This document shows, in pieces, positions 44,897 through 52,958 of a stretch of DNA of 64,000 nucleotides. Position 1 is the first letter of the stretch. Each line of letters begins with the position of its first letter. The notes under the pieces were generated by a model. That model was not told the origin of the DNA, did not search any database, and saw nothing but the letters and a program-made list of their open reading frames with translations. This DNA comes from Sutcliffiella horikoshii (lineage in GTDB: Bacteria > Bacillota > Bacilli > Bacillales > Bacillaceae_I): NCBI RefSeq assembly GCF_002157855.1, contig NZ_CP020880.1:2480001-2544000 (forward strand), in the 5' to 3' direction. A program made the translations under genes and the position numbers.

Positions 44897-45811
44897 TCAG
44901 TTCATTCTGACCCTTAGCCAATCTTCCCATTCTTTCATTGAGTTTCCGATAAGGTGATCAGCGTATTTGTGTTTTTTAATTTCTGGCATTTTATCCACTG
45001 CGGTACCTCCCAACCCAATCAAGAGGTCCGGATATTGTTCTTTAAGCGCTGTCACCATTTCTAATGTTTTTGGCAGGTTGATGGACAATGTACATGACAG
45101 GAATAAAAATTTCGGCTGTACTTCTTTTAAAACAATATGAATATCTTCATCGGCAATACTTGTTCCTAAGTATATGGTTTCAAAGCCTTTTCTACGCACA
45201 AACAGTGTATATATCAATAATCCCAGTTCATGCCATTCACCAGGTCCGCATACTGACACGGTTTTAGGTAAAAATCCATTCACTGGTAATCCATGAAGAA
45301 TCATTCCTATTCTAGAACGCAAAAATGCAGACGCAAAGTGTTCATGTGCACTTGATATTTCATGATTTTCCCACATGTCACCAACCTTCACTAATAGCGT
45401 CCCCAAAATATCTATTAACACTTTTTCTACAGAATATAAACTGAATATTTTATCCATTAATTCATGAGCTTGACCTTCATTGAACTCCAATAGAGCTTCT
45501 AGTAATTGGTTTAGCAAATCAGTAGATAAATCTTCTTGATCTGTATGTTGTGTAGAATCTGATTCCAAAAGAGCCTGATTGTTTTTTTCAAGAAGTGAAA
45601 CAGCTTGACTGATGGTGAAGCCTTTATTTACCCTCTGTATTAGCCACTTCAGTATTTTGATATGCTCTTCCGTGTATAATCGGTGCCCGGACTCATTCCT
45701 TACGGGAGCGATGATCTGATATCTTCTTTCCCAAGCCCTTAATGTACCCGGTTGGATACCCAGCATTTTGGATGCTGCCTTAATATTGTATTTACCTTCA
45801 TTATTTGCCAT
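44897..45811 (-). CDS. MerR-type regulator with cobalamin-binding domain (CarH/LitR-like)
   Basis: About 304 residues: N-terminal MerR helix-turn-helix with YNIKAASKMLGIQPGTLRAWERRY (about 8-75), a helical B12-binding cap (about 100-180) and a Rossmann-like cobalamin domain (about 185-300). The cap has W-x9-EH (WENHEISSAHEH) and the fold has E-x-H-x-x-G (EWHELG) with the cobalt-ligating histidine. Both motifs mark CarH and LitR, adenosylcobalamin photoreceptors that repress in the dark and release DNA in light. The start ATG 45811 is fixed by the promoter at 45849-45877. It sits between ypbG and mecB and is absent there in B. subtilis. No carotenoid genes are nearby. Confidence 0.88.
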   Translation of the reverse strand: MANNEGKYNIKAASKMLGIQPGTLRAWERRYQIIAPVRNESGHRLYTEEHIKILKWLIQRVNKGFTISQAVSLLEKNNQALLESDSTQHTDQEDLSTDLLNQLLEALLEFNEGQAHELMDKIFSLYSVEKVLIDILGTLLVKVGDMWENHEISSAHEHFASAFLRSRIGMILHGLPVNGFLPKTVSVCGPGEWHELGLLIYTLFVRRKGFETIYLGTSIADEDIHIVLKEVQPKFLFLSCTLSINLPKTLEMVTALKEQYPDLLIGLGGTAVDKMPEIKKHKYADHLIGNSMKEWEDWLRVRMN

Positions 45812-45848
45812 ACAGATCCCTTTCTCTCTTTTCAAAATCATTACTTGC

Positions 45849-45877
45849 ATTATATAGCACGAATGATACTGTGTAAA
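45849..45877 (-). promoter_or_regulatory. Sigma-A promoter of the B12-binding regulator
   Basis: Minus strand TTTACA (45872-45877), 17 bases, TATAAT (45849-45854). Predicted start near 45842, about 30 bases before the ATG at 45811. Confidence 0.8.
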
Positions 45878-45899
45878 CTTTGTATAGGTTTTGAATAGG
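45867..45899 (-). promoter_or_regulatory. Three 11-bp direct repeats, putative CarH-type operator
   Basis: Minus strand CCTATTCAAAA, CCTATACAAAG and TTTACACAGTA are adjacent 11-bp blocks sharing T at position 3 and CA at positions 7-8. The last two fit nnTnnACAnnn. The third block contains the -35 box. CarH of Thermus is known to bind three tandem 11-bp repeats overlapping a -35 element, so autoregulation is inferred. Confidence 0.6.
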
Positions 45900-51965: not shown

Positions 51966-52550
51966 TTAAACATTCTTTATTTCTAACTGACGATCGAGCC
52001 AAATTGCAAGCTTCTTATATAATAATAAGAACAAGAAAGTGACAATCAACCCTTTGATTATATTAAAAGGTAGGATACCCTTCACAATTCCTTCAATCAT
52101 TTGAGCGGAAGACCCAGATGGGACATTAAGGAAATATGTGAATGCAGGTAAGAAAATATAATAGTTGAGTACACTCATGATCAATGCCATGGATACTGTA
52201 CCCGCAACCAAACCTAATCCTAATCCTTTGGTTGTACGAATTTTATTAAAGATGAAATAAGTCGGCAGTATAAATAATACCCCTGCAGTGAAATTAGCCA
52301 ACTGTCCAACAGGAACTCCTGTCATACTTCCTTGCACAATATAATGCAAGATATTTTTGATTGCTTCGACTGTAATACCAGCCACCGGCCCAAAGATAAT
52401 GGCTGCAAGCAATGCCGGGACGTCACTGAAGTCCACGGATAAAAATGGCGGTAACAAAGGTAGTGGAAAGCTTAGCCACATAAGCAGATAGGAAATACCA
52501 CTTAACATCCCTACTGTTACCATTTTTTTGACGCGATTTGATTGATTCAT
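51966..52550 (-). CDS. ribU: Riboflavin ECF transporter S component (RibU/FmnP)
   Basis: Membrane substrate-binding subunit for riboflavin uptake, working with the shared ECF energising module. 194 residues, six membrane segments, with SFPLPLLPPFLSVDFSDVPALLAA near 25-50, characteristic of RibU. An FMN riboswitch lies upstream on the same strand, confirming the substrate. The start ATG at 52550 follows AGGAGAG, which can pair with TCTCC just upstream. Confidence 0.95.
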   Translation of the reverse strand: MNQSNRVKKMVTVGMLSGISYLLMWLSFPLPLLPPFLSVDFSDVPALLAAIIFGPVAGITVEAIKNILHYIVQGSMTGVPVGQLANFTAGVLFILPTYFIFNKIRTTKGLGLGLVAGTVSMALIMSVLNYYIFLPAFTYFLNVPSGSSAQMIEGIVKGILPFNIIKGLIVTFLFLLLYKKLAIWLDRQLEIKNV

Positions 52551-52732
52551 TCTTCTTCTCTCCTTTTCAAATGGAGATCCACCTCGTACGAAAAGAGAGA
52601 ATTCAAAGATGTGTGTTTATTTCTTGATGCAAATCCACGCAAATAACCGTTTGTCAAAATGAACAAACGGGAGTACGAAGGCATCAGGAAATAAGCATCG
52701 AAACGAAGAAATTTCGACAACTTTGAACCTCC

Positions 52733-52860
52733 ATCTTCTCCCATCCAGACTATACTGTCGGCTTTGGAATCGCACCAAATCCTGCCCCAACATCAGGCTC
52801 GCGGGCTTAGAGAATACATCTCATCACCGCCGATCGGGAATTTCACCCTGCCCCGAAGAT
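52733..52860 (-). ncRNA. FMN riboswitch (RFN element)
   Basis: On the minus strand the element starts ATCTTCGGGGCAGGGTGAAA, has TTCCCGATCGGCGGTGAT and GCGAGCC, and closes with CAGTATAGTCTGGATGGGAG and GAAGAT. The first and last six bases pair as P1. These are the conserved blocks of the RFN element. About 180 bases separate it from ribU. They contain a CCGTTTGT/ACAAACGG hairpin and a TCTCC/GGAGA pair over the ribosome binding site. Confidence 0.95.
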
Positions 52861-52958
52861 AGATCATATTATTAACTTACGAGTTTATTATACTCAAAAA
52901 ATAGTAAAAAGGGAAGAGAAGTGAATTGTTATTCATTTTTTATAGGAATTTTGAAACA

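Follow-up and report, generated by a model that had tools for sequence, protein, structure and literature searches.

In the 64,000 nucleotides of Sutcliffiella horikoshii DNA analysed here (contig NZ_CP020880.1, positions 2,480,001 to 2,544,000; hereafter the window), a gene for a MerR-type regulator with a cobalamin-binding domain raises two questions: which genes would such a regulator control, and does it work in the way described for its relative in Thermus thermophilus? A first-pass annotation of the sequence had considered a light regulator within the mecB-ypbG cluster unexpected. The comparison with 45 orthologues, carried under the record names Sutcliffiella, Metabacillus, Peribacillus, Rossellomorea, Robertmurraya, Fictibacillus, Domibacillus, Alkalihalobacillus and Bacillus, does not bear this out. 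In all 45, litR is flanked by ypb genes or recQ on one side and by mecB, gudB or ypdA on the other (neighbour matches to YpbG in 40 and to MecB in 43), and the setting is shared by eight genera besides 'Bacillus'. These counts come from related genomes and are not independent, since L063 and L064 are recorded under one strain name and several of the orthologue loci come from genomes that carry G handles below; one of the original 46 loci (L076; 25% identity, Acidobacteriota) was excluded from all counts. The placement of litR is therefore inherited rather than odd, and the regulator must consequently act on other targets in trans. Also in the window, an FMN riboswitch (52729-52864, minus strand) is located upstream of a membrane-protein ORF (51966-52550, minus strand), probably a riboflavin transporter gene, which we take to be ribU.

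Protein family and cobalamin motifs

The litR gene (44897-45811, minus strand) encodes 304 amino acids comprising a MerR helix-turn-helix and a B12-binding domain. The probable start is the ATG at 45811 and the stop lies at 44897; the sequence AAAGGG shortly 5' of this ATG (45818-45823, minus strand) reads as a likely ribosome-binding site. In a profile search, the Pfam models MerR_1, B12-binding_2 and B12-binding each scored above their cut-offs, and the domain order, i.e. a MerR DNA-binding domain (45587-45790, minus strand; residues 9-76 of the 305-codon reading 45814-44900) followed by the four-helix and Rossmann subdomains of the B12-binding part, is that of class I CarH/LitR proteins. 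The top sequence matches in the PDB were chains of Thermus thermophilus LitR/CarH (E 7e-28 and 9e-28). Thermus CarH also ranked first (match 5c8d, approximately 29% identity across the fold match) in a fold search with an AlphaFold model built on an alignment of 20 orthologues (mean pLDDT 83.8, pTM 0.64). Full-chain TM-scores against Thermus CarH were just about 0.5, with high rmsd, whereas the C-terminal domain alone reached a TMt of 0.81 against 3whp, a difference that we attribute to domain placement. Against the NCBIfam CarH equivalog NF052513 the protein scored 141.9 bits, below a cut-off of 400 that suits the narrow group of that model, and it is not filed under this equivalog.

The description of a CarH/LitR-like MerR-B12 protein with both motifs tied to adenosylcobalamin (AdoCbl) was upheld, as in addition to the Pfam domains the window protein contains W-x9-EH (WENHEISSAHEH, 45338-45373, minus strand; residues 148-159 of the 305-codon reading) and E-x-H-x-x-G (EWHELG, 45221-45238, minus strand; residues 193-198). 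The former, which according to PMC8156234 caps the adenosyl group and is lacking in MetH, is present in the window and in 45/45 orthologues. The short form of the latter is likewise found in every orthologue, and the long B12 motif as given in PMC8156234, ExHx2Gx41SxV/Tx22-27GG, in the window and 43 of the 45. Cobalamin adenosyltransferase (PF01923) occurs in 16/16 genomes of the genus and does not discriminate between them.

The first-pass annotation had also proposed verifying the cobalt-ligand histidine by alignment. The histidine of EWHELG aligns with that of GERHEIG in Thermus CarH, while the position of Thermus His132, the residue after the tryptophan, is glutamate in the window and in 44/45 orthologues, and glycine in the remaining one. 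In Thermus CarH, light is described to shift His132 onto cobalt (PMC10442372), and the H132A variant stayed mostly tetrameric after light in that study, which itself mentions an earlier report of disassembly (PMC10442372). His132 is a part of the Thermus mechanism rather than a defining class I motif. Since it is not conserved among the orthologues, release from DNA cannot proceed here exactly as in Thermus CarH. Photolysed CarH of Bacillus megaterium (CarHBm) is described as giving dimers instead of monomers (PMC8156234), which makes it plausible that LitR of Bacillaceae leaves DNA by a different release route from Thermus CarH. Further, the residue preceding EH is histidine in 20/20 aligned LitR sequences and glutamate in Thermus CarH.

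The operator at litR

Three adjacent 11-bp direct repeats precede litR on the minus strand (45899-45867), matching 11 of 12 core bases: CCTATTCAAAA at 45889-45899, with the core TnnTCA and one mismatch to nnTnnACAnnn (TCA for ACA), CCTATACAAAG at 45878-45888, which matches the pattern, and TTTACACAGTA at 45867-45877, which includes the -35 hexamer TTTACA (45877-45872). The -10 hexamer TATAAT (45849-45854, minus strand), a consensus match only, follows at 17 bp. The combination TTTACA-17-TATAAT (45877-45849) was the top of 14 sigma-70-like matches in 4 kb where 14.1 were expected by chance, and the promoter call by itself is not significant. The earlier claim that three nnTnnACAnnn repeats overlap the litR promoter was confirmed, and with it litR has the predicted operator of tandem 11-bp direct repeats over the promoter that belongs to class I.

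To score the operator, we counted the 12 core bases of three tandem nnTnnACAnnn units in the 250 bp upstream of each orthologue, on either strand, and used dinucleotide shuffles (n=1350) as background. A triple with at least 10/12 was found in 41/45 promoters compared to 57/1350 shuffles, and one with at least 11/12 in 35/45 compared to 1/1350. Absence of the repeats upstream of orthologous genes had been named in advance as evidence against the annotation, and conservation in 41 of the 45 at this threshold answers that point in its favour. The four promoters below 10/12 belong to Bacillus sp. cl95, two Fictibacillus and one Domibacillus, and a second Domibacillus (L071) is doubtful, scoring 9 on the plus strand only and 10 on either strand. 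Most Rossellomorea litR promoters have a fourth repeat in register; litR of the genus Sutcliffiella has three. Taken together, this makes it likely from the operator sequence that litR is autoregulated via its own triple operator.

Predicted targets in trans

Scanning the own genome with the core pattern TATACAAANTTTACAC at three mismatches was useless (268 matches versus 312 for the reversed control), and the scan was replaced by a comparison across the genus, in which 16 genomes were scanned for a degenerate form of the triple, allowing one mismatch at most. This gave 81 sites versus 25 with the reversed pattern. In the two genomes without an intact LitR, G004 and G011, there were 9 pattern sites against 7 in the reversed control. 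In another 16 genomes outside the genus, reached via the orthologue loci, the pattern again preceded crtN and mgsR, along with sites that were not assigned to a gene.

Several sites were set aside: TATACAAAATCTATACA at G000:C1:147200, which recurs also in the LitR-less G011; TATACAAAGCATACACA at G000:C1:2864987, which is within an MBL-fold ORF; a site within an ORF at G000:C1:1384793; and one near small ORFs at G000:C1:2437581. Two other candidates are weak and were not counted in the regulon. Directly upstream of a secreted Endonuclease_1 gene lie two clean repeats (L148:5339-5366, minus strand; G000:C1:663338-663365), which recur in 9 genomes of the genus inside a generally conserved promoter block. 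In two Metabacillus genomes, a LitR-type triple (L234:2622-2649 and L236:2542-2569) lies in the gap between a DUF4397 gene and a divergently oriented glyoxalase-family gene.

The first-pass annotation had left the targets of the regulator unknown. It was accurate in noting that carotenoid genes are not near litR; matching operators are, however, found elsewhere in the same genome, at two carotenoid operons. At crtN-crtN-crtM, the triple (G000:C1:1307845-1307877, reverse orientation) overlaps a TATAAT and is present in 14/14 genomes of the genus that have crtN and an intact LitR (13 at 12/12 and one at 11/12), as well as in 13/13 outside the genus at at least 11/12, six of these at 12/12. G011 has crtN and lacks a LitR orthologue, and its crtN promoter scores 8/12, i.e. 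chance level. The second, a convergent operon, runs from a CruF-like gene through genes for an acyltransferase and a glycosyltransferase to a crtP-like desaturase gene. Its triple (G000:C1:1315998-1316025) is present in 14/14 genus genomes, always at 11/12. Like the photoreceptor type itself and its likely autoregulation, carotenoid control by LitR is of a kind already known, here from B. megaterium, with Sutcliffiella as a predicted new case. Besides these operons, the genome has a second crtM-type gene (PF00494) adjoining an ABC transporter (G000:C1:2340228-2340983; L146:8178-9020); the other 15 genus genomes have at most one PF00494 gene each.

A further triple (G000:C1:2863172-2863199) lies at a gene of the Spx/MgsR family (L149:4229-4621), whose product passes TIGR01617 with 125.8 bits over a cut-off of 75 and also the Spx subfamily model NF002459 (137.9 over 123). 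A yqgX-like or MidA-like gene adjoins it in 27/27 loci within and outside the genus, and yqgX and mgsR are presumably adjacent in B. subtilis as well. The product has CxxC at C13/C16, R17 and RRPI from residue 94, the positions described for B. subtilis MgsR (PMC7235348), while the other family member in this genome has its CxxC at 10 and 13, as in Spx. Because of these residues and the constant neighbour, we name the gene the mgsR orthologue. Its triple is present in 13/13 genus genomes, all at 12/12, and in 14/14 outside the genus at at least 11/12, 12 of them at 12/12 (orthologues with at least 56% identity). Complete triples thus number 25/27 for mgsR, 19/27 for crtN and 0/14 for cruF (all 11/12), and of these three sites in trans the one at mgsR is the most strictly conserved. 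In G003 (80% complete), G004 and G011 the search for an mgsR orthologue returned paralogues only, at no more than 47% identity, and outside the genus G025 and G030 have the spx paralogue only.

The strongest competing explanation concerns this site. LitR could control only itself and the carotenoid genes, the mgsR site being conserved as a promoter or for another regulator and mgsR answering to sigma-B, as in B. subtilis, where mgsR is described as solely sigma-B-dependent and positively autoregulated (PMC7235348). We regard this as unlikely, given that neither of the other trans sites is as well conserved as the mgsR triple, which persists, at 12/12 and 11/12, in G029 and G031, two genomes with no crtN match at E 1e-100.

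The spx paralogues served as a negative control, which within the genus scored 7-9/12 (17 of 19 loci). Outside the genus (n=10), four score 11, four 10 and two 9, and six of the eight higher-scoring promoters belong to the Rossellomorea group. Either spx is a weaker LitR target there, or the control may fail through shared descent; these repeats were not counted in the regulon. In the Rossellomorea group (L329-L334), two clean, partly conserved 11-bp repeats are located 150-200 bp upstream of spx, in L333 also nearer, within triples of 10-11/12.

The LitR of G004 is 68% identical to that of the window, but the tryptophan of Wx9EH is replaced by leucine and the glycine of ExHxxG by serine. Searches of this genome found no litR operator (best 7/12), no PF00494 gene and no mgsR orthologue. 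Such joint loss in G004, and a pattern count near that of the control in G004 and G011 together, are to be expected if LitR reads these sites. The G004 locus itself (L017; G004:C1:2021234-2022145, ORF from 1501) represents a degenerate litR orthologue in a genome without crtM-type genes.

Proposed mechanism and known systems

With good confidence, we take the litR product to be a CarH/LitR-type (class I) photoreceptor and repressor acting at litR, crtN, cruF and mgsR. The protein family, motifs, operator sequence, conservation and genome-wide placement are observed; from them we infer AdoCbl binding, the light response, the direction of regulation and LitR as the reader of the repeats. By analogy with CarH, AdoCbl-bound LitR would in the dark oligomerise on the three, or in some genera four, 11-bp repeats and block RNA polymerase. 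In the light, cleavage of the Co-C bond would loosen the LitR oligomer and open the promoters, here the four operator-marked ones of litR, crtN-crtN-crtM, cruF-acyltransferase-glycosyltransferase-crtP and the mgsR orthologue. Light would then lead to more carotenoid synthesis, to more MgsR and to more LitR, the last allowing a fast reset in the dark.

Two other readings address the signal and the reader. LitR might serve as a cobalamin-supply sensor through which pigment and stress genes respond to the amount of AdoCbl, with light being of minor importance; AdoCbl would be read in either case, and the histidine needed for efficient light break-up of the Thermus tetramer (PMC10442372) is replaced throughout the orthologues. 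We consider this improbable, as the adenosyl cap absent from MetH (PMC8156234) is kept in all 45 orthologues, carotenoid targets suit light protection, and B. megaterium LitR is reported to work as a light sensor (PMC6739363, PMC9758184). It is highly improbable that another protein, such as a different MerR regulator, recognises the repeats, with LitR merely co-resident: although LitR binding is itself deduced, promoter repeats of MerR type are not unique to LitR and weaker matches occur at spx promoters outside the genus, 11-bp direct repeats with a T/ACA core are the CarH arrangement (PMC8156234), the triple sits at the promoter of LitR itself, and the sites vanish together with LitR in G011 and with the LitR motifs in G004.

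Returning to the light-controlled repressor, we lean slightly towards a broader interpretation in which LitR acts in Bacillaceae as a general light-stress regulator and more than a switch for pigments, with mgsR turned on by light, and releases DNA without the His132 switch, perhaps via the invariant histidine before EH. Our confidence is held down because two claims are joined here and because the spx paralogues outside the genus do not give a clean control. If this interpretation is true, light directly switches on a thiol-redox regulator of RNA polymerase that answers to sigma-B in B. subtilis. The earlier suggestion that the photoreceptor may control a new regulon stands in part: the conserved operator at an MgsR/Spx-family gene speaks for it. 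No paper naming MgsR together with LitR or CarH was found among the open-access papers searched, and as far as those papers go the predicted LitR-mgsR link appears to be new. The analysis adds a regulon predicted from operators that are conserved across about thirty Bacillaceae genomes. It also points to a probable direct link between a B12 photoreceptor and an MgsR/Spx-type stress regulator, a link retained by two genomes that gave no crtN match, and shows that throughout the clade another residue replaces the histidine central to the accepted light-switch mechanism of Thermus. As judged by sequence comparison, the conserved mgsR operator and the missing His132 set this LitR apart as a variant.

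Among the closest known systems is LitR of Bacillus (Priestia) megaterium QM B1551 (CarHBm), likewise from a Gram-positive bacterium. In addition to the crt genes, it reportedly represses its own gene, according to a 2015 study, and we know of no case in which mgsR is its target. CarHBm is described as an AdoB12-based light-dependent repressor that places crt genes under light control (PMC6739363, PMC9758184). Its operator has four 11-bp repeats (PMC8156234), like most Rossellomorea litR promoters and unlike the three of Sutcliffiella. Thermus thermophilus CarH/LitR shares the domain order, Wx9EH and ExHxxG with the window protein and is its best PDB match in sequence and fold; its operator, as described in PMC8156234, has three tandem 11-bp repeats with a T/ACA core, as at the litR of the window. 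The two proteins differ in having only about 29% identity, in His132 versus glutamate, and in glutamate versus histidine before EH, and the extra conserved A of nAnnTnnACAn from the Thermus CarH comparison is not in every repeat here. B. subtilis MgsR (YqgZ), in turn, resembles the mgsR product of L149:4229-4621 in family as well as in C13, C16, R17 and RRPI from 94, but whereas its gene is described as exclusively sigma-B-driven (PMC7235348), the mgsR promoter region here bears a LitR-type triple.
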